Of a stretch of DNA of 46,043 nucleotides, positions 19,967 to 42,588 are shown piece after piece. Position 1 is the first letter of the stretch. Every line of letters begins with the position of its first letter. Position numbers and translations under genes: made by a program. The notes under the pieces were generated by a model that saw only the letters and a program-made list of their open reading frames with translations, had not been told where the DNA came from and searched no databases. The stretch covers positions 1 through 46,043 of the forward strand of contig PBAR01000002.1 of the NCBI GenBank assembly GCA_002718285.1. The letters are read 5' to 3'. The stretch is from Fidelibacterota bacterium (GTDB lineage: Bacteria > Marinisomatota > Marinisomatia > Marinisomatales > UBA1611).

Positions 19967-21211
19967 TCATTTAAATGATTTAATAATTTCTAAATGCTCT
20001 TCCATTAGGTTATGAATACTAAAAAAATTTACACCATTTGCCCCCCATTTATTGCATTGTTGATCGCAATTGTTAATTTTTGAGGAGTTAATGCATTCAC
20101 AAAAATTCCAGAGAAATATTTGAAACGGCCATTTGTCTCTTCAATGCCATTTTCAACACTGTATTTTATCCAGTCAAGGTCTTTGTTGTAAAAATGATGA
20201 TAATTCATAGGACAAGCAATGTCTAAATTGCAAGATGACCAATCCTGTCGAACCATCTTACGAGACATTTCTGGGTAAGGAAATACAGCAGCAGATAGTT
20301 CAGTACCGTTTTTATGTGTAATCTTTACCAAATCATTTACTAAGCTTGTAACTTCATCTAATCTAAACTTTAGCCATTTATTATTTAGCTCTGGGTGTTT
20401 TAATTCTAACGGATCAATATCATAAATTTCTTTGAATTTCTTCCTGGCATCAGGATGATAACCAAAATCAAATTCTGGCATTTCACCTTTTTGCATAAGT
20501 CCATATTTCGGTTGCAAATCTCTGACATAATTATAAAGATCCTTTCCAAAATCATGAGTCCAAGTCTCTTCCCACTCACCATCAAACCAAAGCACTCCAA
20601 TATCACCATAGTTATTTAACAATTCCTGGAGTTAGTTTTTCATATAAATAACATAACAATTAAAATCAGCTCCTTCTGTTTTTCGATTCATCTCCCAGTT
20701 ACGCCGAGGTAAATAATCTGGATGATGCTAATCCATGATAGAATGATACCAGTATATTTTCAATCCACATTTACAGCACGCTTTCGCAAGTTCATCTAAA
20801 ATATCTCTTTGAAAAGGAGTTGACATAATATCATAATCTGTATAGTTGGAATTAAAAAGAAGAAAACCATCATAATGCTTACTTGTGATAACAATATATT
20901 TCATTCCTGCATCGCTAGCTATTCGATCCCATTCATCCGCATTGAATTTTATTGGGTCAAATTTTTCAATAAATTTGCCATACTGTTCCAATGGAATCTG
21001 TGCAGTTGTACGAATCCATTCAGCATGATTTGTTTTTTCTTCCCACTATCCTGCGGGAATGGAATAAAGCCCCCAATCAATAAACATACCAAAACGGGCT
21101 TCCCGCCACCAAGCCATACGTTCGTCTTTTAAACTTTTCATTTTATCATCTGATCCCCAAAAGCTGTTTATTCAAAACAAAAAGAAAAAGAAATAATATT
21201 AATCTTTTCAT
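19967..21211 (-). pseudogene. GH29 alpha-L-fucosidase, broken by three stops and two frameshifts
   Basis: Conceptual translation gives a nearly full-length secreted GH29 enzyme. A signal peptide starts at ATG 21211, two bases after the stop of the FGE gene. Then follow [19 protein letters not shown] (the usual FIHWG reads FIDWG), YGKFIEKFDP, YIVITSKHYDGFLLF, YHSIMD and GVLWFDGEWE, which holds the nucleophile Asp. Lesions are: a frame change between about 21172 and 21150, just after the signal peptide; TAG at 21048-21046, where the family has Glu in IPAGEW; TAG at 20730-20728, where MDWHHPDY expects Trp; TAA at 20634-20632; and a one-base shortfall in the G run at 20046-20041. Beyond the last, frame-corrected sequence continues to a TGA at 19969-19967. 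Each stop is one substitution from a sensible codon, so inactivation looks recent. Confidence 0.9.
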
Positions 21212-21212
21212 T

Positions 21213-22274
21213 CTATTTTAGGGATTTTACACATCGAAAACCAGTATGACTAAGTCCTGTATCTTGGCTTGAACTCATGCGTCTGGTAACACGATAACCA
21301 CTGCAATAGCTATCATTACATAAATAAGACCCACCCCGCATTACCCGTTTGGAGATATGCGGTTCATTAGGATCGAATGAACTGGAAGGGCCTTTGGGAT
21401 TAATAGCTATTTTGTTGGATGCGAAGATACCGTAGGACCCGAAATGATACAAATCATTACACCATTCCCATACGTTTCCAGCCATATCATACAGACCATA
21501 CCCATTAGGTGAATAAGATTTCACAGGAGCTGTACCAAAAAAACCGTCCTGTAAAGTGTTTTCATAAGGAAATATTCCTTGCCAAAAATTCGCTTTGGAA
21601 GACGATTGGCTGATTGAATTATTTCCCCATGGATAGATTGGATTATCTAAACCACCCCTAGCCGCCCACTCCCACTCTGCTTCTGTTGGTAACCGCTTTC
21701 CAGCCCACCGGGAGTATGCCACAGCATCTTCCCAGGCTATATGAACTACTGGATAATCCATTAACTTTTCAATAGTGCTTCCAGGGCCTTCTGGATGCTT
21801 CCAATTCGCACCGATGGTCCACTTCCACCATTGTGTTTCATTATTTAGCGGGACTGGACCAAGCGTAGCCTTAAATACCAAAGAACCAGGCTGTAAAATA
21901 TTTTCATCAGGTTTAGATTCACCTGATGGTAGATTTCTTTTTAATTCTTCCCATTCAATAACTTTTTCTGCAACGGTTATATAGTTTGTTTTTAATACGA
22001 AATCTGAAAATTGCCGGTTGGTAATTTCATGTATGTCCATGTAAAAGCTGTCAACCTTTACTTCATGCAATGGGAATTCATCTGGGCCAGCTTGCTGATC
22101 TCTGCCTCCCATCATAAATGTTCCCCCTGGGATTAATACCATTTCCCCAAAATAATTTGGTTCATATCTATGAGAAGATTCTTTGGCACAACCATAGAAT
22201 ATCATAACCAAAACAAAATATCTGATAAATGCTTCTTTGAAGCCAAAATAGTTGTAAAACTGTGGAAAGCTCAT
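21213..22274 (-). CDS. Formylglycine-generating enzyme (sulfatase-modifying factor), lipoprotein
   Basis: A 353-residue SUMF1/FGE-sulfatase-domain protein with a lipobox-like IFYGCAK near residue 30. It begins the catalytic fold with MVLIPGGTFMMGG and FYMDIHEITNRQFSDF. It contains the WEWAARGG and YDMAGNVWEW blocks. It ends with the full active-site signature RGGSYLCNDSYCSGYR (Cys319 and Cys324) and GLSHTGFRCV. Both cysteines are present, so this is a true formylglycine-generating enzyme rather than one of the many SUMF1-like proteins lacking them. It oxidises the cysteine of CxPSR sulfatases to formylglycine. It lies divergent to the sulfatase gene at 22565 and directly upstream (2-base spacing) of the GH29 pseudogene. 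The gene itself is intact although its neighbouring client is interrupted. Confidence 0.92.
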   Translation of the reverse strand: MSFPQFYNYFGFKEAFIRYFVLVMIFYGCAKESSHRYEPNYFGEMVLIPGGTFMMGGRDQQAGPDEFPLHEVKVDSFYMDIHEITNRQFSDFVLKTNYITVAEKVIEWEELKRNLPSGESKPDENILQPGSLVFKATLGPVPLNNETQWWKWTIGANWKHPEGPGSTIEKLMDYPVVHIAWEDAVAYSRWAGKRLPTEAEWEWAARGGLDNPIYPWGNNSISQSSSKANFWQGIFPYENTLQDGFFGTAPVKSYSPNGYGLYDMAGNVWEWCNDLYHFGSYGIFASNKIAINPKGPSSSFDPNEPHISKRVMRGGSYLCNDSYCSGYRVTRRMSSSQDTGLSHTGFRCVKSLK

Positions 22275-22564
22275 ATCAAAAAGTAAGAATAAAAAAAAAG
22301 GGAAGATAAAATTCTTTCATTTTCTTACATCTATAAACTGGAACTTCAGCAAGATAAAATGTATACATCATCAATTAGAAAAATTATAGGTGCAGTGATA
22401 AACCATAATTCAATAGGATAACAATTCATTTATTGAGATTTGAATGACCACATTTGATATAAAAATAGATATTTAATCAATTATTGCAATAAGGATTCAT
22501 TTATAAGACTAGGTTTTTTAATCTTGTTTATGATAGTAGATTTTTGGCGGTCTACGTATAAAAA
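22275..22564. promoter_or_regulatory. Divergent intergenic region between FGE and sulfatase
   Basis: These 290 AT-rich bases separate two divergently transcribed genes and should hold both promoters. No convincing -35/-10 pair or Bacteroidota-type TAnnTTTG element was found. A short inverted repeat GTAGA-N10-TCTAC (22536-22555) sits just before the sulfatase start but is too weak to call an operator. Confidence 0.3.
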
Positions 22565-24202
22565 ATGGAATCTATTATGAGTTCAAAATTCGAAAAAAAA
22601 ATTATTTATTCCATTTTCCTATTATTCTTTTTTTCTTGTTCCAACCAAAATGGTCATGAATCGTCTAAACTAAATATCCTTTTTATTATGTCTGATGATC
22701 ATGCTTATCAAGCGATTAGTTCTTACAATGATAAATTAATCCAGACACCAAATATTGACCGTATTGCCAAGGATGGAGCATTATTTACCAATTCATGCGT
22801 CACTAATTCTATTTGTGCTCCTTCAAGGGCTACAATCCTTACAGGAAAACATAATCACATCAATGGAAAAATTGATAATGAAACTCCTTTTGATTCAAAC
22901 CAGATAACCTTTCCACAACTTTTCCAAAAGGCAGGGTACCAAACTGCAATGTTTGGAAAACTGCACTTCTGAAACAATCCTAAAGGAATAGATGATTTTA
23001 TGATTCTACCTGGTCAGGGGCATTATATTAATCCTACTTTTATAACCAAAACCAGTGATACTACTATAACTGGATACGTTACTGATATTATTACCGATCT
23101 ATCCCTGAATTGGTTAAAAACCAAAAGAAACAAAGAAAAACCATTTCTAATGATGTATCTGCACAAAGCACCTCACAGGCCGTGGTGGCCAAGCCCAGAA
23201 AAATTTATTGAGTTTTCTAAAAAAGAGTTTCCCATACCAGAAACTTTATTCGATGACTATAAAAATAGAGGTACAGCTGCGAAGACAGCTGAAATGAATA
23301 TACTGTATGATTTAAGATATAGTCATGATTCCAAGATAAGACCTGAAATCCTTGAGTCATTAAATAATATTAAACCATTTGTAAAACCCTATAATTGGGG
23401 CGGCTCAGATGGATTTACAACATCATTCATAAGAGCAAATGATATGCAAAAAACCATATACGAACCTGTTTTGGATTCCATTAATATGTGGTTCAAACAG
23501 AATTGGAAACTCTTGAGTGATAAAGAAAAAATGGAATGGAAATACCAGCGATATATGCAAGATTATCTTGGCTGTATCTCATCTATTGATGATAATGTTG
23601 GCCGTGTCCTGGATTATCTTCAAGATTCCAGTTTGGATAAGAATACAATTGTTATTTATACATCAGATCAAGGATTCTATCTTGGAGAGCATGGTTGGTT
23701 CGATAAGCGGTTTATATATAATGAATCATTTAAAACACCATTATTGATCAGCTGGAAAAAAAGAATAAAACCTGGAATAAAGAAAACTCAAATGGTCCAA
23801 AACCTAGACTTCGCCCAAACATTTCTTGAAGCGGCAAATATCATTCCACCATCTGATATGCAAGGTGAAAGTCTTTTACCTCTGTTGCTGGGCCGTGATC
23901 ACGAATGGGACCGGGAAGCAGTTTATTACCATTATTATGAATATCCATCTGTCCATATGGTAAAACGACATTATGGAATTGTGACTGAAACATTTAAACT
24001 AATCCACTTTTATTATGATGTAGACGAATGGGAACTTTACGATCGTAGCAACGACCCTCAAGAGATGAAAAATGTATATAATGATCCTGCTTATGGGAAT
24101 ATTGTTTCGAAATTAAAAACTGAATTAGCTGAACTAAGGCTAAAGTATAAAGACTCGAAGGAGCTGGATCTTTATTATATTAATAAATATTTGGATAAAT
24201 GA
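22565..24202 (+). pseudogene. Sulfatase (formylglycine type, S1 family), interrupted by one in-frame TGA
   Basis: One frame runs from ATG 22565 (or Met5 at 22577) to 24202, broken only by TGA at 22970-22972. The N-terminus is a lipoprotein signal (LFFFSCSN). Family marks are metal ligands in MSDDHA (~Asp44, Asp45), the formylglycine site CAPSR (Cys84) with ATILTGKH, and TSDQGFYLGEHGWFDKRF for the second half. The stop replaces the residue after GKLHF where relatives have Gly before NNPKG (GGA to TGA is one change). The phrase LPGQGHYINP just after it recalls sulfatases acting on GlcNAc-6-sulfate, a tentative substrate. Without readthrough the product is 135 residues and inactive. The formylglycine-generating enzyme lies divergently upstream; two dioxygenase genes follow after 29 bases. 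Confidence 0.9.
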
Positions 24203-24231: not shown

Positions 24232-25017
24232 ATGATTAATTGTAATATAAAAAAGGAATACAATAAAAACGGTTTTGTGATTATACGAAATGCTATTGAT
24301 CCTGATCTAGCAAATGAAATAAAAAATCATGTTCATTGGCTGGGATTAAAATATCCAGATATTAGACCTGAAGCATTCCACCATGATTTATTGATTCATG
24401 ACCCATTTATACACTACTTAGTCAAATCGAATCAGCTTCTAAGTATTGTTGAAAAAATAATCGGACCCAACATTGCTCTTTTTGGTGCTCACTATATTGC
24501 CAAAAAACCATACACTGGTAAACCAGTCGACTGGCATCAGGATGGATCCTATTGGCCGCTTGAACCTATGAAAGTTGTTTCACTTTGGGTAGCAGGAACT
24601 TCATCAACAATAAAAAGTGGGTGTATGCGAGTGATTCCTGGAACCCAAAATAAAAACCTTCTTAAACCTTCAGAAATGATTCAAGTTGACACTGAAGAAT
24701 TTGTATTAGATCTTGCCATACATCCTGATCAAATCGATGATTCAGATACGGTTGATATAGAACTAAATGCTGGAGACATATCAATCCATAATCCATTTAT
24801 CATCCACGGATCAAATCCTAACCTCTCTGATAAGTGGCGCATGGGTCTAACACTGCGTTATATTCCTACATCAGTATATGTAAATAGACAAGGTTGGAAA
24901 TGTATTTTATCAAAAGGAATTGCAGAAAAAGAGATAAAAAACAATTACTCTCTTCCACCAAAATTTGATGAAAAACAACATATGCCCTTTAATGGATACG
25001 AAGAATATATTGATTAG
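24232..25017 (+). CDS. Phytanoyl-CoA dioxygenase (PhyH) family Fe(II)/2-oxoglutarate oxygenase
   Basis: A 261-residue cytoplasmic protein without signal peptide. The double-stranded beta-helix is marked by the facial triad: His102 and Asp104 in WHQDGSYWPL and His192 in FIIHGSNPN. A 2-oxoglutarate-binding Arg (203 or 209) lies in WRMGLTLRY. Middle segments SLWVAGTSSTIKSGCMRVIPG are typical of the family. Members hydroxylate varied small molecules, and those in glycan loci have unknown substrates, so none is assigned here. It lies 29 bases after the sulfatase frame and 32 bases before a second, dissimilar PhyH gene, probably one transcript. All key residues are intact, unlike the upstream sulfatase. 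Confidence 0.9.
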   Translation: MINCNIKKEYNKNGFVIIRNAIDPDLANEIKNHVHWLGLKYPDIRPEAFHHDLLIHDPFIHYLVKSNQLLSIVEKIIGPNIALFGAHYIAKKPYTGKPVDWHQDGSYWPLEPMKVVSLWVAGTSSTIKSGCMRVIPGTQNKNLLKPSEMIQVDTEEFVLDLAIHPDQIDDSDTVDIELNAGDISIHNPFIIHGSNPNLSDKWRMGLTLRYIPTSVYVNRQGWKCILSKGIAEKEIKNNYSLPPKFDEKQHMPFNGYEEYID

Positions 25018-25049: not shown

Positions 25050-25823
25050 ATGCATAATGTAAAATATAATTTATCAGAAGATGGGTTTTGTTTATTGCCA
25101 AAAATATTTTCATCTTCTCAGATAGCATCAGCCAGAAATGGTTTGTACGATGTGATCAAGGGGAACTATGAAACTAGAGTCCCTCCTGAAAATCGATTCT
25201 GGGATGTTGGAGATGATCCTAAAAATATAATTAAAATTGATAAGCCTCACATCTGCAATAAACATATTTGGAATTTAATTACACTACCAAGTTTTGGAAA
25301 AAGATTAGCCGAAGCGGTTGGAGCAAAGATGATTCAAATATGGCATTCACAGTTGGTTTGGAAACCTGCAGGAGGTGGTAAAAAAGGTCATGCAGGTTGG
25401 CATCGTGATACCCAATATTGGCCATTTTGGAAACCAAATGGTGTATTTACTGCGTGGATTGCAATATCGGATGTTAATGAGGAATCAGGCCCTGTTCGCT
25501 ACATACGCGGTTCCAATAAATGGGATGATATTTCAGGAATGGATTTCTTCGATAAAAATATTGCTTCACAAAATGATGTTCTTATAAAAATGCACAATGA
25601 TTTTAAAATTGTTAGCGCAAATATTGAAAAAGGTCAGATAATTATCCACACATCTAGGGTGTATCATTCATCTGGACCAAATATTAGCAAAGGTCCGAGG
25701 ATTGGCATGGTTGTGCATTTTTGTACAGATATGGCTGAGAGAATTGATATCACAGGAGATCACTCAGATTATTTAGATCAAATAGAAAATAAATCCATCT
25801 GCCCAATCATCTATAAAAAATAA
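25050..25823 (+). CDS. Second phytanoyl-CoA dioxygenase (PhyH) family oxygenase
   Basis: A 257-residue soluble protein of the same superfamily as its neighbour but clearly diverged. The iron ligands are His118 and Asp120 in GWHRDTQYWPFW and His206 in VYHSSGPN; Arg217 in GPRIGMVVHF would bind 2-oxoglutarate. The segment AWIAISDVNEESGPVRYIRG is the usual core of the family. It is co-directional with the first PhyH gene. It converges on the GH38 gene, with only 32 bases between stops and no visible terminator hairpin. Two different PhyH enzymes after a sulfatase suggest consecutive oxidations of one substrate or two related ones; this is inference. Confidence 0.9.
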   Translation: MHNVKYNLSEDGFCLLPKIFSSSQIASARNGLYDVIKGNYETRVPPENRFWDVGDDPKNIIKIDKPHICNKHIWNLITLPSFGKRLAEAVGAKMIQIWHSQLVWKPAGGGKKGHAGWHRDTQYWPFWKPNGVFTAWIAISDVNEESGPVRYIRGSNKWDDISGMDFFDKNIASQNDVLIKMHNDFKIVSANIEKGQIIIHTSRVYHSSGPNISKGPRIGMVVHFCTDMAERIDITGDHSDYLDQIENKSICPIIYKK

Positions 25824-25855: not shown

Positions 25856-28800
25856 TCAAATACCAGGGCTAAATCTAAAAGTTCTAATCTCGAATGGTTT
25901 TAAATTAAGTTTGATTGATTTATCTACATGCATTTTTTTTCCTATCTGTTTCCATTCCATTAAATCACTCTCATATAGTACACCATTTAAAAAAAGACTC
26001 CCATTCGAATTGCGTCCCAGTGTCTCCACAATGCGCAATATCAATTCATCTTCTTTTTCTGCTTTTTTTAAAACGGATAATTCTAAACCATTACCTTCCA
26101 ATTTAACAGGCATCTCTATATGTGATTCTACTCCTTCAAACATTATTGGTTTCTGGTTCAAACATGTCGATTCCCTAATTACATCTGAGCGTATCAAATC
26201 AAATAGATGAGGAAAAAAGCTATAAGTAAAATAATGTTCTCCTATATCAGCATCAGGATCCGGATTATTTGGTGACCTTAGAAGATTTAAATCTAAAATA
26301 TTATTGTGAACCATATAACCATACTTGCAGTCATTTAAAAGTGCCACTCCATAATCGTGATCAGATAGGTCACCATATTTATGGCCTACCACTTCAAACT
26401 TGGCCCTGTCCCAACTTGTATTTCTATGCGTATTCCGTTTTACATAGCCATACTGTATATCAAATGAAACTCGTTCTGATATGATACTAACTGGGAAATG
26501 GACCCTGAGCATTTTATGCTTTTCCTTCCAATTGACCATTGTATTAAAGTCCAAACGTTTTGAATTTGGATTTAATGATACAGTTTGCTGTATCTGTGAA
26601 TGGCCGATCGTGAGGGTAAATATTAATTCTTGTAATACATCACCCTTTGAACCAAACTCGGTTTTTTGAGCAATGGCTTTCTCTATATAAACATCTCGAT
26701 AAAAAAAATCAATATCCCAAGCATCCCAATCATTTGGACGATCTTCATAAAGAGAAAGTACGTTTCCAACTCCATCTAAAACTTCCATTTCTGCTTCCTT
26801 ATCAAAAGCAGAAATGAGGGCTCCATTATTATCAAACCTATAGCATATTAGTTCATTCTCTAGTACTAATTCATCTAAATTATTCTGCTTTAATAAAACA
26901 GGGTCTGCTTTTCTATATGACTTAAAGGATAAAGAATCTATTTCTACATATGCTAATACTTCTTCACCGCATTTTTGTAAGGGCAATGTTTTTTTATTTT
27001 CATCTATGATAGAAAACCCATGAAGAGATTTTGGAATAGAAATCATTCCCTTCCAAGAATATGACAGTGTATTGGCCAAAACAAATGAGTCAGGATTTTG
27101 CTCAAATAAAATTTTCCCAACCTGAGTAATAAGTGAATTACAGCCATGTTGAAGCTCTTCGTATTCTATGTGAGTGGTTTGATAGACCAAATTGATACTC
27201 GACCCCGGGATAATATCATGAAATTGGTTGATAAGTAATTTTTTCCAAAATCCATCCAACGTTTTTAATGGATATTTTTGTATAGGAGCACAAGACCAAA
27301 GAATTTCTACAGCGCGAAGCTTCCATTCCAGTTGCCGATTATGTTTTTTAACCAATCCATGAGTCGTAAGAGTACCCCGGTGAAGCTCTAAATAAAGTTC
27401 GCCCACCCATGTTTCTATTTCATTCTTATAACTGTCTAATCGGTGAAAAAAGTTTTTTGCTGTGTCAAATTTTACTCTAGGAGAATTTTCCAAATCTGCC
27501 ATTCTTCGTCCAAGTTCTATATTTTCAGGTTTAGGGCCTCCACCTCCATTACCTACCCCAAATAAGGAAATAAACTCATTAATTCTATCTTTCTCCTTAA
27601 AATTATTCTGTGCAGGAATTAAAAATTCCGTATCCAGCTCGCTATTGTAGGTGTTTTCGGGCGGAAAATGGGTCAGGATTTCTGAACCATCAATTCCCCG
27701 CCAATTAAAGGTATGATGAGGAAAATCATTAAACTGGCTCCATGAAAGCTTTTGTGTCAGAAAATAATTGATACCTGATTTTTTTAGGATCTGAGGTAAT
27801 GCAGCAGAATAGCCAAACACATCTGGCAGCCATAAATTATCTACATCCACATTAAACTCATCCATAAAATAATTCTTTCCATGCAATAGCTGACGCACCA
27901 TTGATTCGCCACTAATAAGATTACAATCAGCTTCAACCCACATCCCTCCCTGGACTTCCCAGTTACCAGAACGTACTGCCTTTTTTATGCGTTTATATAT
28001 TTCTGGATAAAACTCTTTAATAAATTGATAGTGCTGAGGCTGAGAAGCTCCAAAGATATATTCTGGATATTTTTCAATAATATTCAATTGCGTTGCAAAA
28101 GTTCGAGCGCATTTCCTTATAGTCTCCTTAACGGGCCAGAGCCAACCAGTATCTATGTGCGCATGGCCTATTGCAGAAACAATAAGGTCAGATGCCGATG
28201 CTGGTTTTTTCAATTCAACATTTAATAAACCTCGGGCTTGTTTTATCTTTTTAGGATCGATTTCAAATGCATTAATACAATCATTTAATACCCGAATTAT
28301 TCTTGAACGCCTTACAGATTGTTCATTAAGCCGTTTTACTAAACCAAGCAGGATACGTGCATCGAGATACAATTTCCAAACATCATCATTAAAAATCCCG
28401 ATCTTTATTTTCTCAACCTTGGAATTGAACCATCCATGTCGCTTCGGGTTTTCTTCCGATGGATCTGAATCCATAAAAATACCAAACAACGAATTTGCTG
28501 CTGCTTCAACCCAAAAATCTATTTTCCCATCAGAGTGACAACTATCATCTAAGGGCACTATTGTGCGAACAAAATTTGGTTCCCATATCGAACCATTTGT
28601 TATACCTTGAATAGCTCTGCCATCAGAGCCAAAAACCAACCCTTCCCCTGAAAAATCTAACTCTGCTACAACCGCTTTCCCTAACCATACTTCAGGTATT
28701 TCTCCCTGTAAATGGAACCAGGCACTTTCCCATTTCTGGCCCCATTGTTCTCCTTCTGTAATAGGTTTGTAGTCTAAGCTAAGCCTATCTGAAAAAGGTA

Positions 28801-28948
28801 CTGGAGTATTTGACCAAGCATATTCAGCACGAAGAGTTTGTTTATCGTAGATAAAAAGTGATGGTAACTGGTTATACCACTTATCAATTCTGTTTATAAG
28901 GATTTCTGTTTCTTTTTTATTCATAAGAGTTATTCTACTGAAATCCAT
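25856..28948 (-). CDS. GH38 alpha-mannosidase
   Basis: A 1030-residue enzyme without a signal peptide, so probably cytoplasmic. An N-terminal beta-rich domain (~1-250) precedes the GH38 catalytic domain. That domain has zinc ligands in IGHAHIDTGWLWP (His264, Asp266), the nucleophile in LWLPDVFGYS (Asp376) and HDIIPGSS near 590. The C-terminal half is the beta-sandwich typical of the family. It releases alpha-linked mannose from N-glycan-derived oligosaccharides. The stated start overlaps the symporter stop by 19 bases; Met9 (28924), five bases after that stop, is an alternative. With the upstream symporter and CBM9-like protein it forms a three-gene unit that could import and trim mannose-containing products. 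It is intact and of normal length. Confidence 0.93.
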   Translation of the reverse strand: MDFSRITLMNKKETEILINRIDKWYNQLPSLFIYDKQTLRAEYAWSNTPVPFSDRLSLDYKPITEGEQWGQKWESAWFHLQGEIPEVWLGKAVVAELDFSGEGLVFGSDGRAIQGITNGSIWEPNFVRTIVPLDDSCHSDGKIDFWVEAAANSLFGIFMDSDPSEENPKRHGWFNSKVEKIKIGIFNDDVWKLYLDARILLGLVKRLNEQSVRRSRIIRVLNDCINAFEIDPKKIKQARGLLNVELKKPASASDLIVSAIGHAHIDTGWLWPVKETIRKCARTFATQLNIIEKYPEYIFGASQPQHYQFIKEFYPEIYKRIKKAVRSGNWEVQGGMWVEADCNLISGESMVRQLLHGKNYFMDEFNVDVDNLWLPDVFGYSAALPQILKKSGINYFLTQKLSWSQFNDFPHHTFNWRGIDGSEILTHFPPENTYNSELDTEFLIPAQNNFKEKDRINEFISLFGVGNGGGGPKPENIELGRRMADLENSPRVKFDTAKNFFHRLDSYKNEIETWVGELYLELHRGTLTTHGLVKKHNRQLEWKLRAVEILWSCAPIQKYPLKTLDGFWKKLLINQFHDIIPGSSINLVYQTTHIEYEELQHGCNSLITQVGKILFEQNPDSFVLANTLSYSWKGMISIPKSLHGFSIIDENKKTLPLQKCGEEVLAYVEIDSLSFKSYRKADPVLLKQNNLDELVLENELICYRFDNNGALISAFDKEAEMEVLDGVGNVLSLYEDRPNDWDAWDIDFFYRDVYIEKAIAQKTEFGSKGDVLQELIFTLTIGHSQIQQTVSLNPNSKRLDFNTMVNWKEKHKMLRVHFPVSIISERVSFDIQYGYVKRNTHRNTSWDRAKFEVVGHKYGDLSDHDYGVALLNDCKYGYMVHNNILDLNLLRSPNNPDPDADIGEHYFTYSFFPHLFDLIRSDVIRESTCLNQKPIMFEGVESHIEMPVKLEGNGLELSVLKKAEKEDELILRIVETLGRNSNGSLFLNGVLYESDLMEWKQIGKKMHVDKSIKLNLKPFEIRTFRFSPGI

Positions 28949-32248: not shown

Positions 32249-32917
32249 CTAGATCTTTGATAATATTTTTGTAGCAATATTAGACATTAACTCATAGCCT
32301 GTCTTATTTGGATGAACACCATCTTTCGTATATCCTATATCGAGTCCTTTATTTTTATCTACCATTAAAGAATAATAGTCCAGATATACCATTTTATTTC
32401 TGACTGCATAATCTTTTATAAGTACGTTAATAGAACTAATATTAGATGGCACATTTTTAATAGAAAGATTCCAGGGGTAATTATGTACGGGTAATATAGA
32501 AGAGAGAATAATTTTTATCTTTTTATTGATTGCTAACTCTGCCATATAAAATATATTATCAGTAATCATTTTAACCATTGATGGTCCTGTATTTCCTGCA
32601 ATATCATTTGTACCCGCAAGAATAACGATAACATTTGGTTTAAGATTAATAGCATCAGGCTTGAAGCGCAATAACATTTGAGGAGTTGTCTGACCTCCTA
32701 TCTCTCTATTAATATAACCCTGATTTGCAAAGAAACGTGGATACAAGTTCCCCCACTCTTCTGTAATAGAGTCTCCGATGAATACTATCCTATTTTCATT
32801 TTTTTTCGGCAATCCTAGCACGATATTTTATTTTCGGTAATATCTTAGATTTGGCCAATCCTGATTGTTTTTCTCGTTATTTTTCATAAACGCTAACTGC
32901 CTTATTTCATATTTCAT
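32249..32917 (-). pseudogene. SGNH/GDSL-type esterase with an in-frame TAA near the N-terminus
   Basis: The conserved domain is encoded from a GTG at 32821 to 32249 (190 codons): FIGDSITEEWGNLYP with the nucleophile Ser, GGQTTPQMLLRFKPD, ILAGTNDIAGNTG and KDGVHPNKTGYEL with the Asp/His pair. Relatives carry a conserved segment just before it, and here that segment is present upstream in the same frame (QDWPNLRYYRK) from an ATG at 32917 or 32887. It is cut off by TAA at 32830-32828, one change from GAA. The GTG could still produce a shortened protein with all catalytic blocks, so activity may persist. It is probably a lipase/esterase-like carbohydrate deacetylase; the substrate is unknown. Its start abuts the TonB-receptor remnant. 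Confidence 0.75.
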
Positions 32918-32927: not shown

Positions 32928-34286
32928 TCTACTGAATTAGTAATTAATATCTATAAATATCCTAATAATATTGATGAAATCGGATCAAAAATTGTTTATT
33001 GTGTTACAATATTAGATGAATATTTTATAGGTAGATATGATTTTGGTCCTGTTGCTGATATTGATTTTATGATGAAAGTCTTCAATTATATGAGAGCTAA
33101 TTGGGATAAATTTAATTCAGGAGTAATAATTCCTGAATCAGTAATGCACCGAATTAGTGAAACGCACTCAATACAATATGACTATTCGGGCAAAGAAAAT
33201 TATGAAGCATCTTATTTTATGGCAGATATCAATATAGGATCAAAAATTAATGTTGTATCCAGTGCAAGATTCGAAGGTAAATCTACCGAGTATCAATCTT
33301 ACAAATCTGTAAAATCACCTGCCCCTCATTGGGTTTATACTGGAGAGCCATCTTCCCAAAAACGGAAAAACTCATTTTTTCTTCCTGCTTTGTTTGTACA
33401 CCTGAAACCGACTGATTGGTTAAATATACGGTTTGCCAGAACCAACACTCTTACGAGACCTGATTATAGGGATTTGACCCCTTTTTACGAAATTGATGGG
33501 ACCTATAATACTATTGATTATCGGAATCCTCTTTTAGTTCCCGGCTTATCAAAAAATATTGATTTTTTACCATAGCTGCGCACCAAAACCGCCTTGGACT
33601 CATTAGCATTGGTTACTTTGAAAAAGATATTGAAAACCTAATTTATGCCAGCGGATCACGAATAATTACAAATACAGATGATTTCAATCTTCCGGAAAAC
33701 CTATTGAAAAATAAAATATTAAACTATACACTCAACAATCCTTATAACGTTTTCCTGTCTAGATATGAAATTGATTATCAGACAAGGTTCTGGTATCTGC
33801 CCGGTGTTTTAAGCGGTCTGGTATTTAATGCAAATTATACCTATACAGAATACGATGTAAAATATCCATGGACCATTCTTCATCATGAGTTTGATTGGTC
33901 AATACCGGCATTAATTACAACCAATATTGATACATTCTATGCCGATCGCTTGCTCGATCAACCCGATCAAATTATTAATATATCTATTGGCTATGACTAT
34001 AAAGGATTTTCAGGTAGATTATCTATGCTGCACAAAGATAATGTTTTTATGCGAACTAATTTTTGGCCTGAGCTGAGAGAAACAACAGATGCATACCGTA
34101 GATGGGATCTGTCAATGAAACAAAAACTTCCGATAAGCGGTCTGGCAATCTTTTTAAATGCAAGCAATCTTACAGAAGCAGTGGATGTTAACCGATACAG
34201 AGGAAAAAAATTTCGCAGGAAATAACTTAACATCTAAACAACATTACGGCATGACTATAGATCTTGGATTTCGTTATTCATTCTAA
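32928..34286 (+). pseudogene. Remnant of a TonB-dependent receptor: C-terminal barrel only, two frameshifts
   Basis: An open frame begins after TAA 32925-32927 and encodes barrel sequence without signal peptide, plug or any proper start. Typical features are ADIDFMMKVFNYM, DWLNIRFARTNTLTRPDYRD, and after correction AAHQNRLGLISIGYFEKDIE, LIYASGSRI, GFSGRLSMLHKDNVF and a final GMTIDLGFRYSF. The frame shifts in the T run at 33563-33568 and again in the A run at 34204-34210, after which the true C-terminus with Phe-TAA is reached at 34286. About the last 450 residues of a ~900-1000-residue receptor survive. The missing front half, and the abrupt junction a few bases from the SGNH start, suggest a deletion. 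This would have been the importer for the plus-strand genes that follow. Confidence 0.85.
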
Positions 34287-34303: not shown

Positions 34304-35071
34304 ATGAAACTAACAATATTCATAACCTTGCTTATTACAAATCCATTAATAGCTCAGAAGTATAATAACGGCATTAAAGTAGATTTTGACAGTCTATATC
34401 CAGATTCAAATTTGCACATCCCATATAGAGCTGAGTGGCAGATAATTGCATACAAAAATCGTATTCAATATTTCAAAACAAATCCCATTGGATATAATAA
34501 AATTATTTTTTTAGGAAATAGTATAATGGAAGGATGCAAAGATTGGAATGAGAAGTTTGGTCTTAATAATATTGTAAATAGAGGAATCACTGGAGATATT
34601 ACAGAGTCAATGCTTGCCAGATTAAATGAGGTATTTTACTATAAACCAATAAAAGTTTTTTTGTTAATTGGAATAAATGATATTTTTGATGGTGTAATTA
34701 CTTATAAAAAAGAAATTACGCCATTAAGAATTGTCACTAATATCTTTAATATAGCTGACAGCATAAAATATAATTCTAATCGCACAGAAATTTTTATTCA
34801 CACTCTCTTACCGATTAATGAAAAAAAGTTCAGAAATATTAGGGAATTTTTCCCCGATCATAATTACCCAATAAATAAACAAATTAATGAAATTAATAGA
34901 AAAATTATTGATACAGGAAAAAATAAAGGGTATAAAATTATCGACCTTCATTCAGTATTTATCAATGATCAAGGAAAAATGGAATTGCAATTTTTCAGAG
35001 ATGGCTTACACTTAAATGATGCAGGATATAAAGTATGGGCAACACATATTAAGAAATACTTAATAGAATAA
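34304..35071 (+). CDS. Secreted SGNH/GDSL-type esterase
   Basis: A 255-residue protein with a signal peptide (LTIFITLLITNPLIAQ). The SGNH blocks are IIFLGNSIMEG (Ser nucleophile), NRGITGDITESMLARLNEV, FLLIGINDIFDG and the C-terminal RDGLHLNDAGYKVWA, which supplies Asp and His. In this Bacteroidota-type subfamily the first block often reads GNSI, so Asn in place of Asp is not by itself a defect. Related proteins are sialate O-acetylesterase-like or act on acetylated sugars; the substrate here is unknown. It starts 17 bases after the TonB remnant and is followed by a similar gene after 46 bases, so a tandem duplication is likely. Confidence 0.88.
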   Translation: MKLTIFITLLITNPLIAQKYNNGIKVDFDSLYPDSNLHIPYRAEWQIIAYKNRIQYFKTNPIGYNKIIFLGNSIMEGCKDWNEKFGLNNIVNRGITGDITESMLARLNEVFYYKPIKVFLLIGINDIFDGVITYKKEITPLRIVTNIFNIADSIKYNSNRTEIFIHTLLPINEKKFRNIREFFPDHNYPINKQINEINRKIIDTGKNKGYKIIDLHSVFINDQGKMELQFFRDGLHLNDAGYKVWATHIKKYLIE

Positions 35072-35117: not shown

Positions 35118-35819
35118 ATGAGGCATTTTTATAATCATATGGAAGCTGTAAAAAATCATAATGCTGATCAAAAAGAACATTATGATCAACGTTGTACCGA
35201 GTTTGCTAATTCACCTATAGGTTTTAATAAAATTGTTTTTCTTAGGGACAGTCTTACTGAAGGAACACAAAACTGGAAAAAATATTTTAATAATAATAGA
35301 ATTGATAACCGAGGCATTGGAGGTGATACTACAGAAGGAGTTTTAGCAAGGCTAGATGAAATTTATTATTATAAACCTTTGGCAGTATTTTTATTAATTG
35401 GTATTAATGATATTTTTAATACTGATTCCCCTAATAGAGAAAAAACCACAGTAGAAACAGTTTCAGATAATATAATACTTATCAAAGACACTATAGCAAA
35501 CCAGGGTATAGAAAAAAATTTTATTCAAACAATACCCATAAATAATAATATATACTTTAAAGAGAATGGCTGGTTTCCAAATCATAGGATTTCTTTAAAC
35601 AAACAGATTAATCGAATAAATAGGTCAATAAAAAAGCAATCTAAAGATAAATTACATACCATTATTGACTTACACTCTGCTTTTTCAGATAATAATGGGC
35701 TATTAAATAAATCTTTTACAAGTGACGGAGTTCATTTAAATCAAAATGGATATAAAACCTGGGCTAACTTTATTCAAAATGATTTTGATGCAATTACGTT
35801 AAATCCTTTAACAAAATAA
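35118..35819 (+). CDS. SGNH/GDSL-type esterase, tandem paralogue without signal peptide
   Basis: A 233-residue protein clearly related to the gene just upstream: NSPIGFNKIVFL versus TNPIGYNKIIFL, NRGIGGDTTEGVLARLDEI, YYYKPLAVFLLIGINDIF and SDGVHLNQNGYKTWA. Two features suggest weakened function. It has no signal peptide although its sibling does. Block I reads FLRDSLTEG, with Arg where the family has Gly beside the nucleophile Ser. The catalytic Ser, Asp and His are all still present. Either it is a cytoplasmic esterase of changed specificity or a copy drifting toward loss; the surrounding broken genes favour the latter (inference). Confidence 0.8.
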   Translation: MRHFYNHMEAVKNHNADQKEHYDQRCTEFANSPIGFNKIVFLRDSLTEGTQNWKKYFNNNRIDNRGIGGDTTEGVLARLDEIYYYKPLAVFLLIGINDIFNTDSPNREKTTVETVSDNIILIKDTIANQGIEKNFIQTIPINNNIYFKENGWFPNHRISLNKQINRINRSIKKQSKDKLHTIIDLHSAFSDNNGLLNKSFTSDGVHLNQNGYKTWANFIQNDFDAITLNPLTK

Positions 35820-35931: not shown

Positions 35932-38409
35932 ATGAATAAAAAAATAACACAAAGTTTAGTTCATGACTGGGAATTTCAACATCCAGAAGAAAACAAATGG
36001 TATCCAGCAAAGGTACCAGGATGCATACATTTGGATTTGATCGAGGAAGGCTTGATAGGTGATCCATTTTTTGGGGATAATGAAAAACAAATTCAATGGA
36101 TTGGCAAGATCAATTGGAAGTATAGATTATATTTTTACCTTGACCAAACATTAAAAAAAAGAAGTAATAAAAAAATTAAGTTTTACGGAATCGATACCTA
36201 TGCGACTATTTACCTTAATGGACACATTATATTAGAATCAAACAATATGTTTCATCCCTGGGAAAATGATGTAACTCAGATATTAAAAAAAGGAAAGAAT
36301 GAATTATTAGTTAATTTTCGTTCACCACTAAATGAAATCCTGCCCAGCCTATCTACGAAAGCATACACTCTTCCAGCCGAGAATGATCGCGCAGGTGGTA
36401 CAAGTCCTTACACAAGAAAAGCTCCCTACCATTATGGATGGGATTGGGGCCCGTGTTTGATTTCTTCTGGTATTTGGAAGAAAGTAGAATTAATTGGGTG
36501 GAACTCATGGAACATAACAAATATTTTTATAGAACAATTAGAATGTAGCTCTGGATCTGCAAAATTAAAGTTTCTGGTATACATAGAATCAAAAGTTCAG
36601 GAAACAGGAACACTAGTGATTTCTGAACCAAAATCAAAAACCAATATTCATTATCCAATACAGATTAATTCAGAAGAAAATATTTTTACCTATGAAATAG
36701 AAATTTTAGATCCAGATCTTTGGTGGCCTATTGGTTATGGAGATCAATCGCTCTATACTTTCAATATAAAAGTAATAACTCAGAGCAATTCAGCAGAGAT
36801 TACAAAACGTATTGGTATTCGCAGTATCAAAATAAAAAGAGAAAAAGATGAAAGAGGTACCAGCTTTGAAATCCACATTAATGATGTAGCCATTTTTGCA
36901 AAAGGAGCAAACTGGATTCCAGCTGATTCATTTACACCTAGACTGAAAAATGAAGACTATAAATCACTCCTAAAATCCGCAGTATTGGCAAACATGAATA
37001 TGCTACGTATTTGGGGCGGAGGCATCTATGAACCTGATTCCTTCTATAGCCTTTGTGATGAACTTGGCATACTAATTTGGCAGGATTTTATGTTTGCCTG
37101 CTCTCTATACCCAGGTAACAAAAATTTTCTTAAATCAGTTAAAAAAGAGGCCCAATACCAGATAAATCGTTTGAAACACCATCCCAGTATTGTATTATGG
37201 TGCGGTAATAATGAAATTGCTTCAGCCTGGCTAAGTTGGGGATGGAAAGAAAAATTACCAAAATCTGTTTGGAGAAAAGATTATAATATTTTATTCCATC
37301 AGATTATTCCTGAAATCTGTCAAAGTCTAGATCCAGAAAGATTGTATTGGCCAAGTTCGCCAGGACATAGTCTTGAACTTCCAGAATCTGATCAAATATA
37401 TGGTTCTGGCGATAATCATTACTGGGGTGTATGGCACGGAGGAGATGAAATAGAAAGATTTGATGAAAATATTGGAAGATTTATGTCCGAGTATGGTATG
37501 CAATCTTTTCCTGAGCCGAAAACTATTGCAACTTTTGCAAAGAAAAAAGATTGGGATATTAAATCTGAAGTAATTAAATCTCATCAAAAAGCGTCATTAG
37601 GAAATAAAAATATTACAAAATACATAGATATGTATTATCCTACTCCTAAGGATTTTAAATCCTATGCAATGATAAGCCAAATTATGCAGGCTTTAGTGAT
37701 TAGGTATGCTGTCGAAGCCCACAGAAGAAATATGCCTTATTGTATGGGAACGCTCTATTGGCAATTTAACGATTGCTGGCCTGGTGCTTCTTGGTCTAGT
37801 ATTGATTATTTTGGGAATTGGAAAGCATTACAATACGCTGCTAAAAAATTCTTTAATCCTTTATTACTTTCTATTGTTGAAGAAAATAATTCAATAGTTT
37901 TTTATATTATAAATGATTGTAATAAAAGTTCACTTGCAATTATAAATTTATTTATCTATTCATTTGATGGAAATATTAAAAAGAAACTTTCTAAGAAAAT
38001 TGACATACCATCATCAAGATCTAAAAAAGTGCTGGAAATTGAAAGAGAAAAACTAATCACTAGCTATGACCCAACTACTATTGTATTGATCAGCGAAATT
38101 GAGGAAAACAATATAATTGTTGCAAAAAACAATTTTTTCTTTGTCAAGCCAAAAGAACTGAAATTAGAAAAACCTGAAATTGACTTTAATTATGAAAAGT
38201 TGGGAGCAAAATATGTGATTTCCATATATTCAAAAACCTTTATTCACGAATTACATATCCTGTGCGAAAATTTGACGGGCATTTTCACCGATAATTTTTT
38301 TGATCTTCTTCCTGAAAAATTAGTAAAAATTGAATTTGAACCTTCACATAATGACTATGAAATTGCACCAATTTTCACAGTCAATAGTTTACACGGCCTA
38401 ACAGCATAG
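35932..38409 (+). CDS. GH2 beta-mannosidase
   Basis: An 825-residue enzyme without signal peptide. Domain order is as usual for the family: jelly-roll sugar-binding domain (~1-190; PAKVPGCIHLDLIEEGLI, APYHYGWDWGP), Ig-like domain (~195-300) and the catalytic barrel (~300-640). The barrel has the acid/base Glu428 in LWCGNNE, the nucleophile Glu520 in MSEYGMQSFPE, and upstream LRIWGGGIYE. The tryptophan-rich APYHYGWDWGP is characteristic of beta-mannosidases rather than beta-galactosidases. It would remove the single beta-1,4-mannose from the N-glycan core, or mannose from beta-mannan oligomers, in the cytoplasm. It is the first intact gene of a plus-strand run; the oxidoreductase follows after 20 bases. 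It is intact and of normal length. Confidence 0.92.
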   Translation: MNKKITQSLVHDWEFQHPEENKWYPAKVPGCIHLDLIEEGLIGDPFFGDNEKQIQWIGKINWKYRLYFYLDQTLKKRSNKKIKFYGIDTYATIYLNGHIILESNNMFHPWENDVTQILKKGKNELLVNFRSPLNEILPSLSTKAYTLPAENDRAGGTSPYTRKAPYHYGWDWGPCLISSGIWKKVELIGWNSWNITNIFIEQLECSSGSAKLKFLVYIESKVQETGTLVISEPKSKTNIHYPIQINSEENIFTYEIEILDPDLWWPIGYGDQSLYTFNIKVITQSNSAEITKRIGIRSIKIKREKDERGTSFEIHINDVAIFAKGANWIPADSFTPRLKNEDYKSLLKSAVLANMNMLRIWGGGIYEPDSFYSLCDELGILIWQDFMFACSLYPGNKNFLKSVKKEAQYQINRLKHHPSIVLWCGNNEIASAWLSWGWKEKLPKSVWRKDYNILFHQIIPEICQSLDPERLYWPSSPGHSLELPESDQIYGSGDNHYWGVWHGGDEIERFDENIGRFMSEYGMQSFPEPKTIATFAKKKDWDIKSEVIKSHQKASLGNKNITKYIDMYYPTPKDFKSYAMISQIMQALVIRYAVEAHRRNMPYCMGTLYWQFNDCWPGASWSSIDYFGNWKALQYAAKKFFNPLLLSIVEENNSIVFYIINDCNKSSLAIINLFIYSFDGNIKKKLSKKIDIPSSRSKKVLEIEREKLITSYDPTTIVLISEIEENNIIVAKNNFFFVKPKELKLEKPEIDFNYEKLGAKYVISIYSKTFIHELHILCENLTGIFTDNFFDLLPEKLVKIEFEPSHNDYEIAPIFTVNSLHGLTA

Positions 38410-38429
38410 AAAATATCAGGAAAATAATT

Positions 38430-39416
38430 ATGTCAAATTCTAAATTTAGATGGGGAATTATCGGCACTGGTGGGATAGCAAAAACATTTGCAAATGATTT
38501 ATGTTTTACAAAAAATCATAGAGTAACCGCTGTAGGTTCCCGATCATCTAATTCTGCTTTGGAGTTCTCATCTAAATACCCAGGATGCAAGAGCTACGGT
38601 AGTTACTCAGAATTAGTTTCAGACCCTGATTTGGATGGCGTCTATATAGCTACACCTCATTCTCTTCACAAAGAACATACAATAATGGCATTACAGGCTG
38701 GTAAACCTGTTCTATGTGAAAAACCATTTTCTATAAATGAACGTGAAGCACGTTTAATGATAAGTGTCTCGCAAGAAAAAAACTTGACCTTAATGGAAGC
38801 AATGTGGACAAGATTTTTGCCTCACATTGCAAAAGTTCGAGAGATTTTGAATAGTGGTACTCTTGGTACAATCTTTACGTTACAAGCAGATTTTGGACAA
38901 AAACTGACCAGTAACAAGAATCCGCGTCTTTGGGAACCCAAATTAGGCGGGGGTGCACTGCTTGATATGGGGATCTACCCTGTATCTTTTGCTCACATGG
39001 TCCTGGGAAAGCCTTCCAGCATTACTGCACAATCTACCTTCACAGACAAAGGAGTAGATGCACAAACATCAGCAGTATTTGCATACGAAAACGGTGCCCA
39101 ATCCATAATCTCAGCTTCTTCCCATAACCAGACAGCTTGTACAGCACATATTTCGGGATCCAATGGATTTTTAGAAATTGATAGTCTATTTTTCTGTCCT
39201 ACTGCAATGAGAATCGAGTTATATGACGGTTCAAAAATTGAATACCCTAATACCTATAAAGGTCATGGGCTAAGGGAACAAGCAATTGAATTTGCACGTT
39301 GCGTGCAATCCAGGGAAATTGAATCAAGTTTATTACCTCATCAAGAAAGTATTGCTGTAATGAAATCTATGGATCAAATAAGAGAGCAGATAGGGCTCCG
39401 TTATCCAAATGAATAG
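38430..39416 (+). CDS. Gfo/Idh/MocA family NAD(P)-dependent oxidoreductase
   Basis: A 328-residue soluble enzyme. The N-terminal Rossmann domain has RWGIIGTGGIAKTFAND (~5-21), and the family's lysine lies in VLCEKPFSINEREA. The C-terminal alpha/beta domain contains EAMWTRFLPHIAKVREIL, GALLDMGIYPVSFAHMVLG and AQTSAVFAYENGAQSI. These proteins oxidise or epimerise sugars and sugar-like alcohols; this subtype resembles the dihydrodiol dehydrogenase/GFO branch. No substrate can be given, but its place 20 bases after a beta-mannosidase suggests a released monosaccharide or derivative. It is intact. The next gene starts 51 bases downstream. Confidence 0.9.
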   Translation: MSNSKFRWGIIGTGGIAKTFANDLCFTKNHRVTAVGSRSSNSALEFSSKYPGCKSYGSYSELVSDPDLDGVYIATPHSLHKEHTIMALQAGKPVLCEKPFSINEREARLMISVSQEKNLTLMEAMWTRFLPHIAKVREILNSGTLGTIFTLQADFGQKLTSNKNPRLWEPKLGGGALLDMGIYPVSFAHMVLGKPSSITAQSTFTDKGVDAQTSAVFAYENGAQSIISASSHNQTACTAHISGSNGFLEIDSLFFCPTAMRIELYDGSKIEYPNTYKGHGLREQAIEFARCVQSREIESSLLPHQESIAVMKSMDQIREQIGLRYPNE

Positions 39417-39467
39417 TGTTTTTTGAATGGAAAATAGATTGTATATAAGGCTATATTAGTATTTAAA

Positions 39468-40903
39468 ATGAATCTATTGAACCAAAAACATTTTTTTCTT
39501 TTTTTCTCACTCTGTTTTGTTTTTGGACAAGAATATTCTCTACGATTTGATGGAAATAATGATTACGTATCCATCCAGGACCATCCTCAATGAGACCTTA
39601 CAAATAACTATTCTCTTTAGGCCTGGGTTTTCCCTGAATCATTTGATTGGCTTTCGGGGATTATCTCCAAATACCACACCCCCGCATCACACGGATATGT
39701 ATTAAGGCTTACATCCCAATCACCATACACCGGTATCTCTTTTGATGAATCTGAAACAGCTACAGGTTTACTTTATACAGGAAGCTGGTTTCATATTGCA
39801 GCAGTCAATCAATCAGGATAACGAAAATTGTATTTAAATGGTATAGAATATTCACTATCTGGAAACCCGCTTACCATAAGTGCAAATACAAATCCTCTGC
39901 GTATCGGCAGTGATTATGGAGGTCGCTATTTTCATGGTAAAATAGACGAAATCCGCTTGTGGAATATCGCTCGATCAGAATCAGAAATACTTTCTGACAT
40001 GAATACTACTTTATTAGGTAGCGAGGATGGATTGGTGGCATACTACTCTTTTAATGAAGGTATCGGAGATACTCTATATGATAATTCAGGCAATGCGCAT
40101 CAAGGAATTATTTATGATAATCCAGAATGGGCAGATGGATACAATATGTCAGAATTAAGTGGAGATTTAAATTTTGATGACGTACAAAATATTTATGATA
40201 CTGTAATTCTTGTAGCTATCATGCTGGGAATTGAAGCTGGAACAGAAATTCAAATAAATGCTGCAGATACAAACCAGGATAGCATTATAGACATTGTAGA
40301 TCTAGTATTGTTAATTCAGTGGATTTTAGATATTGATGGTAATTCCAGAGTCAGTATTAAAAAAGCAAATTATGTAGTTAAAGATAACTGTATTATTCTT
40401 CAAACAAACGGTGAAATTGCAGGTTTCCAAATTGAATTATCGAATCCTCTGTTAATAAGTGATTATACAATTCCAACTGGCTGGGTATGGAAACAGTCTA
40501 ATGAAAAAATCATAGCTTACAGCCTAGATGGAAGCTCATTGGAATCGGAAAATCTTTTTTTCTTGGATGATAAAGTGAAAATAAATCATTTTTCCGTTGT
40601 TGACTGGAGAAATAATAGAAAAAAAGTGCAAATTTCCTATATCCTAGAAAAATTTAATTTATCTAGTTTCCCAAATCCATTTAACCCCGTCAATAATATC
40701 ACTTTTGAAATAAGTTCTAAGTCATTTATAGATATTTGATTATTTAATTTAAATGGGAAAAAAGTTAATACGATACTTTACGAAATAAAGAATCCAGGAA
40801 AACACCATGTAAAATGGATACCTACAAACTTATCGTCGGGATACTATGTGCTGCAAATTTCTAACGGGTATTATAAACAAACAAAGTTATCTTTCTCAAA
40901 TAA
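39468..40903 (+). pseudogene. Secreted LamG-dockerin protein with C-terminal sorting domain, broken at five points
   Basis: From ATG 39468 one frame encodes a signal peptide (FFLFFSLCFVFGQ) and a LamG/concanavalin-like domain (YSLRFDGNNDYVSI through KIDEIRLWNIARSESEI and GLVAYYSFNEG). A dockerin-like pair of Asp-rich repeats follows (LSGDLNFDDVQNIYDTVIL; AADTNQDSIIDIVDLVLLIQ). The sorting domain comes last (FPNPFNPVNNITFEIS, then WIPTNLSSGYYVLQI). In-frame stops interrupt it: TGA 39591, TAG 39618 (before AWV, where Glu is usual), TAA 39819 and TGA 40737. Near 40881-40890 one base seems missing; the shifted frame then reads KVIFLK and stops at TAA 40901-40903, a natural end. No catalytic domain is visible; glycan or cell-surface binding is likely. 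Confidence 0.85.
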
Positions 40904-40907
40904 ATTG

Positions 40908-42588
40908 ATGAAAAAAACTATAATTATTTTATTCTTTATTCATTATTTACATGGTGATACAAAAGTAACAGCTCTTAATGATGTGCATCATTTCTTTGGA
41001 GGTGGAACAAATAATCGTATTATCACTAATACAACTCAACTTCCAGAAGATAATAATGATTATCAACAGATTCTAATGCATATTTATCTATCCTGCCCTA
41101 CAGATGGTTGCGATCCTTGGGATCGGAAAGCCAACATATCGGTAGAATATTTAAATAGCTGGTATGAGATTGGACGTTACATAACACCTTATGACGTTGA
41201 ATGCGACTGGACCTTAGATGTGACTGATTACCGATCAATATTAAAAGGGGAAATCAACTTGCGTTCCTTATATTGATACATGGGTTCAGCCAGCATGGCT
41301 TCTAACTATCCAGTTTGAATTTGTTTCAGGGGTTCAAAATCACCCATTTACTGTTATAAGAAATATGTGGAATGATAGTTACGCTGTATACGGTGATGAA
41401 ACAAATCCTATTAATTTTTACCCGATTACTGAATATATCCCAGAGGATGCACAATCAATATATCTTAGAATGATTACTACAGGACACGGACAAGGAAATA
41501 CCGATAATGCCGCGGAATTTTCACAAAAAATACATCAGATTTATTTAAATAATGTATTTTTATATAACCATAATTTTTGGAGAGATGATTGTCAGGATAA
41601 TCCATGTTCACCACAGTATGGATCGTGGCAATACAACCGTGCAGGGTTTTGCCCAGGCGCTATAGTAACACCAATAGATTTTGATTTATCCAATTTTATA
41701 TCACCAGGGGATACTGCAACTTTATCTTATATCTTGGAAGAATACTTCAATGAGTGTTCTCCAAATAACATATCATGTATTAAAGGTGTTACTTGCCAAT
41801 CTTGTAATTACAACAATACTGGTCACACTGAACCAAATTATTTTATTGCGTCCCATTTAATAATCCACACTGAAAATATTCACTCTAATGCAGATGTCTA
41901 TTTGACCTTATCAGAAGATACGTTTAGTGGATCCTTAGCGATTATTATCGAAAATTATATTCCTGTATACGGCATACAGTTCGATATCAATATTAATAAT
42001 TTGGCAGGCGAAGGTATTAATGAACTTGAGTTCCAAAATGGAAATTCAGGAAGAGCTGAATCAGCAGGATAGACTGTTTCGATCATTGAAACTGGAAGAA
42101 TAGTTGCACTTTCACAAAATACAGGAAATCCTTTACCTGCGGGTGAAGGTGTACTCACATACATACCCTAGAACAGAGATGATTTGCCTGGACTATATGG
42201 CGATATCTCAATTACTAATGTTTATATCTCTGGATATTTTGGATCTGAATTATCTCATGAGGTAGGACCGCAATATAATTTTGAAAATATATTAAAATCG
42301 AATGAATCCAGTTCTCTACCCAAGAGTTTTCATTTATATCCTAGTTTTCCAAATCCATTTAATCCAATAATAACTATTCCATTTCATATTAGTAATGATC
42401 AGGTATTAGATTTAGATATCTATAATGTTAATGGTAAAAACATTCAGAGTATTTTGAAAAATGCAGAGTTTCATAGAGGAAAACATCAAATTGAATGGAA
42501 TGCTGGTAAATGGAGTAGCGGACTATATTTTATTCAATTGAAAAATAAAAAAAATATTTTCACTCAAAAAATAATGTTAATGAAATAA
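40908..42588 (+). pseudogene. PNGase F-type peptide-N-glycosidase with C-terminal sorting domain, one frameshift and two stops
   Basis: The ATG at 40908 starts a signal peptide (MKKTIIILFFIHYLHG). The first part carries CPTDGCDPWDRKANI, WYEIGRYITPY and LDVTDYRSILKG. An extra T near 41267-41269 then shifts the frame; the other frame continues with YIDTWVQPAWLLTIQFEFV, YLRMITTGHGQG, AAEFSQKIHQIYLNN and YNRAGFCPG, all matching PNGase F. From memory of that enzyme, active-site Asp60 and Glu206 have counterparts here (Asp72 in DPWDR; Glu in AAEF), and Glu118 aligns with Asp in YIDTW. A cohesin-like module follows, broken by TAG at 42070 and 42169, then a sorting domain (FPNPFNPIITIPFH). It would release N-glycans from glycoproteins. 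The stop overlaps the next ATG (TAATG). Confidence 0.87.

Follow-up and report, generated by a model that had tools for sequence, protein, structure and literature searches.

The 46,043-nucleotide stretch of DNA analyzed here (contig PBAR01000002.1; "the window" below means this whole stretch) comes from a member of Candidatus Marinimicrobia and carries what appears to be a locus for harvesting N-glycans. We consider it quite probable that the broken genes of this locus are fixed pseudogenes, and that its surface arm is decaying while its inner arm is kept open. Directly observed are the lesions, intact counterparts in relatives, a second truncated-sulfatase sequence, missing genes, and the deletion of the equivalent block in another lineage. 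Peptide-N-glycosidase F (PNGase F) releases N-glycans from glycoproteins, and enzymes of the GH29, GH38, and GH2 families could trim the released glycans; judging by its gene content, the locus probably has N-glycans as its substrates. The closest DNA matches in a set of 245 genomes of the phylum are G001 (75% nucleotide identity) and G002 (74%), and at such distances none of the 245 appears to belong to the same species as the window. The broken genes are as follows:

19976..20517, minus strand: GHL10-like remnant, residues 150-330 of 331, with one frameshift; fused to the GH29 remnant
20509..21211, minus strand: N-terminal part of a GH29 alpha-L-fucosidase pseudogene, with one frameshift and three stops
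22565..24202, plus strand: exported sulfatase pseudogene (PF00884, PF16347), with one in-frame TGA at 22970
32249..32917, minus strand: SGNH hydrolase 1 (PF13472), with an in-frame TAA at 32830, near the N-terminus according to the N-terminal alignment
33015..34286, plus strand: remnant of a TonB-dependent receptor, the C-terminal ~430 of ~980 residues, with two frameshifts
39468..40903, plus strand: pseudogene of a LamG-dockerin secreted protein, with four stops and one frameshift near 40885
40908..42588, plus strand: pseudogene of a secreted PNGase F, with one frameshift and two stops

An earlier note on this DNA had listed 17 lesions in six genes and proposed an alignment with intact homologues. 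Each broken gene was aligned, by a frameshift-aware protein-to-DNA method, with one to three uninterrupted homologues, and all 17 lesions are real. The alignments recovered every one of the 11 stops (GH29 at 21048, 20730, and 20634; sulfatase at 22970; SGNH at 32830; LamG at 39591, 39618, 39819, and 40737; PNGase F at 42070 and 42169) and five of the six frameshifts (21150-21159, 20044, 33566-33572, 34206, and 41269). The sixth shift, near 40885, was read directly because it lies too near the end of LamG for alignment: the LamG C-terminus (which matches that of G002) and its stop stand in another frame than the rest of the gene. The lesions are strongly clustered, being confined to 6 of 29 genes (a cut-off open reading frame at 3-719 was excluded), and in none of 20,000 length-weighted random placements did they fall into six genes or fewer (minimum 7, mean 12.4). 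All the remaining genes, including the interleaved ones and those of 812-19892, which the note had described as free of lesions, are open frames, most of 812-17508 having been checked in that respect only. Near end-to-end alignment with relatives was obtained for 11 of the unbroken genes (FGE, PhyH1, PhyH2, GH38, SSS, CBM9, GH18, AmiA-like, GH3b, ROK, and SpoIID). In total, the lesion-free remaining coding sequence comes to ~36 kb, 13.8 kb of which lies between broken genes.

The count of six broken genes needs one amendment, as the "GH29" of the note is not a single gene. Its front part shares 79% identity across 204 residues with the syntenic GH29 of G001, which has PF01120 and is 680 aa long in both G001 and G002. 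Its tail belongs to a second remnant, the one that carries the G-run lesion at 20046: its last 181 aligned residues are 66-68% identical to 331-aa GHL10-like proteins of G013 and G014, and such a homologue matches PF02638 at 25.2 bits (under the cut-off of 27.9). The two remnants are fused at about 20509-20517. The TonB remnant is without its first ~550 residues (full receptors have ~980-1070), and the sulfatase has a counterpart in G001 that is an open frame of 548 codons.

The PNGase F pseudogene still has its C-terminal Por sorting domain and a match to PF09113 (N-glycanase C domain) above the cut-off (E 1.5e-16). PF09112 (N-glycanase N domain), present in full-length relatives, reaches 18.9 bits in the fragment against a cut-off of 22.4. 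Intact syntenic versions of both LamG (479 aa) and PNGase F (561 aa) exist in G002, flanked by open Gfo/Idh and GH3b genes. Across the phylum, PNGase F occurs in 66 of the 245 genomes, and none of its 85 matches has a stop inside the matched domain; some of these matches lie in short open frames, many of them at contig ends.

The erosion goes beyond point lesions: it also takes in missing genes, fused remnants, and the truncation of the receptor. In six relatives (L181, L183, L185, L187, L188, and L189), the TonB receptor is preceded by a small lipoprotein-like protein (so called from a reading of its N-terminus) and a type IX secretion system (T9SS)-type protein. Neither was found in the window, except for the shared sorting tail. 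The window also lacks two further sulfatase-like genes that G001 and G002 carry next to GH29. The description of the locus as otherwise intact thus did not hold.

What the broken genes have in common is, for the most part, export. A simple hydrophobicity rule, combined with a reading of the N-termini, assigns signal peptides to PNGase F, LamG, the sulfatase, and GH29; the TonB receptor was judged from a relative since the remnant has lost its start. By the same rule GH38, GH2, the PhyH pair, Gfo/Idh, and SGNH3 have none. The strongest support for a boundary between outside and inside comes from an independent lineage. In G007, G015, and G142, a single contig carries, in this order and with some other genes interspersed, GH38, SSS, CBM9, SGNH, GH2, a T9SS-type protein, a lipoprotein-like protein, a TonB receptor, SGNH, PNGase F, and LamG. 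Compared with G015 (L183/L184, G015:C16), G006 (L195, G006:C3 8018-8057) is missing a block of 10,727 bases whose flanks are 90.4 and 93.4% identical between the two genomes. The block holds the T9SS-type protein, the small lipoprotein-like protein, the TonB receptor, SGNH, a 287-aa gene, PNGase F, and all of LamG except its first ~40 bases, whereas GH2, SGNH1, CBM9, SSS, and GH38 are retained. Those ~40 bases, a truncated signal-peptide start, form the scar in G006 (~6-7 bases are shared at the breakpoints), and because the start of LamG was left behind, the difference is a deletion. A further genome, G012, carries GH2, SGNH1, CBM9, SSS, and GH38 on a single contig and gave no match to PNGase F, but it is small and perhaps incomplete.

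We propose that the exported arm, which comprises PNGase F with its LamG-dockerin partner as well as the TonB-dependent receptor, fucosidase, and sulfatase, has escaped selection and is decaying through stops, frameshifts, and deletions, whereas the inner arm (the GH38 and GH2 mannosidases, the SSS symporter, and their neighbors) is kept open. Relaxed selection is the probable cause, and the inner arm presumably still works. The breakage of these five genes, whose counterparts are intact in relatives, fits the loss of one function that the earlier note had suspected. Its term "freshly broken", on the other hand, is justified only in a relative sense. Simple mutation models translate the six stops in LamG and PNGase F (3,120 bases of G002 sequence) into a rough ~100-160 neutral substitutions, or 3-5% per site. 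Roughly speaking, the loss is recent beside the protein identity to G002 (71-76%), yet older than strain-level change.

We searched a set of 5.8 billion proteins with the sulfatase (an X placed at the stop position), LamG, and PNGase F, and considered the best 120 rows of each search (for the sulfatase, 120 of 7,999 scored). One entry, P0063, is the 400-residue piece of the sulfatase after the stop and differs from that of the window by one residue; it comprises six member sequences on 13 contigs from the sources ncbi, lgn, ena, and tara, although some of these assemblies may share samples. Since P0063 has the truncation together with a different residue, the truncation is not a private, new change. 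Among the best 120 matches, no full-length sulfatase exceeds 82% identity, and the nearest full-length LamG and PNGase F stand at 73% and 76%, respectively. The window's own 303-residue LamG fragment is represented by four member sequences on one contig. The lesions beyond that of the sulfatase are probably fixed too.

That the lesions stem from faulty assembly or consensus calling in a metagenome contig is very improbable. The single contig listed for the LamG fragment speaks for such errors, but a crowding unmatched in 20,000 random placements speaks against them, as do 11 stops of the substitution type. Moreover, the truncated sulfatase was listed on 13 contigs in a form that differs by one residue (bearing in mind that samples may overlap), and absent genes go along with the point lesions. 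Intact and broken alleles could also exist side by side, through population polymorphism or phase variation, an alternative that the earlier note had raised and that we regard as unlikely. Three shifts do lie in or beside short homopolymer runs (20046, 33563, and 34204), and the presence of the surface block varies among relatives, as seen in G006 and G015. Yet these runs are only 6-7 bases long and most lesions (11 of 17) are substitution-type stops; the listed matches, moreover, include no intact version nearer than the percentages given above. A look for hypervariable repeats at the lesions revealed only short runs, besides three short tandem arrays, none of them at a lesion. Finally, recoded stops or programmed readthrough might keep the proteins alive, for which the single TGA in the sulfatase is the sole argument. 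As TAA, TAG, and TGA are all involved, along with frameshifts and truncations, and the neighbors have no internal stops, we reject recoding as having next to no chance of being correct.

A more serious competitor holds that selection has relaxed throughout the N-glycan locus and that the open genes (GH38 first) have just not been hit yet. It is possible, but we doubt it: ~36 kb of other coding sequence is without a lesion, 13.8 kb of this between broken genes, and G006 lost the surface block and kept the rest. On the proposed decay of the surface arm itself, substitution patterns give a mixed picture, the first two comparisons being in its favor. For LamG and PNGase F, counts of lineage-specific changes (codon positions 1+2 versus 3) are 150:128 for the window and 96:168 for G002 (P = 5e-5), as opposed to 275:349 and 247:364 for GH38, SSS, and CBM9 taken together (P = 0.2). 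Where the outgroups do not vary, the window (stops included) and G002 have 23:4 changes in the broken pair and 45:34 in the intact three (P = 0.01). The earlier note had also proposed comparing the ratio of nonsynonymous to synonymous substitution rates (dN/dS, or omega) between broken and intact genes. We did so with a home-made codon model, for which distances are saturated, including several branches in the fits with 6-7 taxa. Three-taxon fits (seven genes) raise no broken gene in the window lineage, and GH38 is lower there (0.045 vs 0.140, P = 7e-9). In the 10 sets fitted with 6-7 taxa, the window lineage has a raised omega for PNGase F (0.27-0.32 vs 0.03-0.04), a borderline one for SGNH1 (0.082 vs 0.011, P = 0.06), a lowered one for CBM9 (P = 0.03), and no difference for GH38 and GH2. 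In view of the saturation, and of an intact gene that is raised as well (see below), this gives no clean contrast, and the case for decay is not rested on dN/dS.

Several observations weigh against the decay of a surface arm beside a conserved inner arm. In the codon model, omega is also raised for the intact SSS (0.129 vs 0.028, P = 1e-5, with 6-7 taxa) and not significantly raised for LamG, the TonB remnant, the sulfatase, and GH29; LamG and both TonB pieces show no difference in the 6-7-taxon fits. Unique residues in the window and G002 number 81:47 for broken and 169:145 for intact genes, a contrast short of significance (P = 0.07), and intact genes are skewed on their own: GH38 toward the window (117:74, P = 0.002), which would suit a general relaxation although the codon model does not raise this gene, and CBM9 toward G002 (28:52, P = 0.01). 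Exported genes make up five of the six broken ones versus 3 of 10 intact ones, which is suggestive but not significant (P = 0.12). The gene order of the window is unlike that of G006 and G015, its receptor remnant standing beside SGNH1 and its GH2 beside Gfo/Idh. The count of 0 in 85 covers the PF09113 match only, where the window's copy likewise has no stop. Sharing of a lesion between genotypes has been shown for the sulfatase only, and further copies of PNGase F may exist elsewhere in the genome, as G002 has a second, distant one. SGNH1, finally, is the least certain of the losses: its stop precedes the catalytic GDS block, and translation may restart downstream, from a GTG at 32821.

The genes that remain intact in and around the locus are listed below:

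21213..22274, minus strand: FGE-type sulfatase-modifying enzyme (PF03781), 74% identical over 353 residues to that of G001
24232..25017, plus strand: PhyH-type dioxygenase 1 (PF05721)
25050..25823, plus strand: PhyH-type dioxygenase 2 (PF05721)
25856..28948, minus strand: GH38 alpha-mannosidase, no signal peptide seen
28930..31014, minus strand: SSS-family sodium:solute symporter (PF00474), 85-86% identical to those of G001 and G002
31002..32087, minus strand: exported CBM9-domain protein (PF06452)
34304..35071, plus strand: SGNH hydrolase 2, exported
35118..35819, plus strand: SGNH hydrolase 3, no signal peptide seen
35932..38409, plus strand: GH2 beta-mannosidase-like enzyme (PF22666, PF17786, PF17753), no signal peptide seen
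38430..39416, plus strand: Gfo/Idh/MocA oxidoreductase (PF01408)
42588..43622, plus strand: GH3 NagZ-like enzyme (NCBIfam match below the equivalog cut-off), abutting the PNGase F pseudogene

The FGE gene has remained intact next to a broken sulfatase, even though two sulfatase-like genes that relatives have nearby are missing as well; its product may be needed by further sulfatases of the genome. The PhyH tandem pair stands beside a sulfatase and GH38 in G001 and G002 too. For GH38, the 15 best homologues (L001-L015) are 61-71% identical and come from metagenome-assembled and single-cell genomes, including those of Candidatus Marinimicrobia and Neomarinimicrobiota. Farther upstream, 812-5991 and 9037-14335 each hold a ~716-aa secreted protein paired with a TonB-dependent receptor; the two pairs look similar, are separated by a PorV/PorQ-family protein, and possibly represent a tandem duplication. 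At 14545-17508, a GH3 domain and a beta-lactamase-family domain (PF00144) occur together in one protein. A search of the window for tRNA genes found none.

Pseudogenized carbohydrate-use loci and reductive gene loss are known in bacteria. The present locus resembles such cases in that several genes of one pathway have stops, shifts, and deletions beside intact genes and that relatives hold intact counterparts. It differs in that mainly the exported arm is hit, the equivalent arm being deleted as one block in an independent lineage. A search of titles and the beginnings of abstracts turned up no account of N-glycan locus decay in Marinimicrobia. In Bacteroides, N-glycans are handled by associated loci with PNGase, GH29 fucosidase, mannosidases, and SusC-type receptors (PMC9522356). 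The window has all four in common with them; its differences are the Por-type sorting tail of PNGase F, the LamG-dockerin partner, the GH38 and GH2 enzymes, and the SSS symporter. Polysaccharide use has been divided into selfish, sharing, and scavenging modes (PMC6474216), and a cell without a surface arm but with uptake and inner enzymes would count among the scavengers, here as judged from gene content.

In short, this organism, judged from its sequence, may possibly have gone over to scavenging sugars that others release. Only tentatively, and with doubt, do we suggest a broader pattern in which the surface arm has been lost more than once, each time independently (through point decay in the window and through the 10.7-kb deletion in G006), the inner arm is selected, and harvesters turn into scavengers; if true, the loss of public goods would be seen at two stages. 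In kind, the gene loss is familiar and ordinary, but it is unusually well staged. In ocean bacteria with small genomes, gene loss is usually visible only once the gene is gone. This locus shows a loss of several genes still in progress, bracketed by relatives with intact genes and by another lineage that carries the deletion, and the line between lost and kept genes plausibly follows function, outside versus inside the cell. The loss of shared extracellular functions thereby becomes testable with existing ocean metagenomes.

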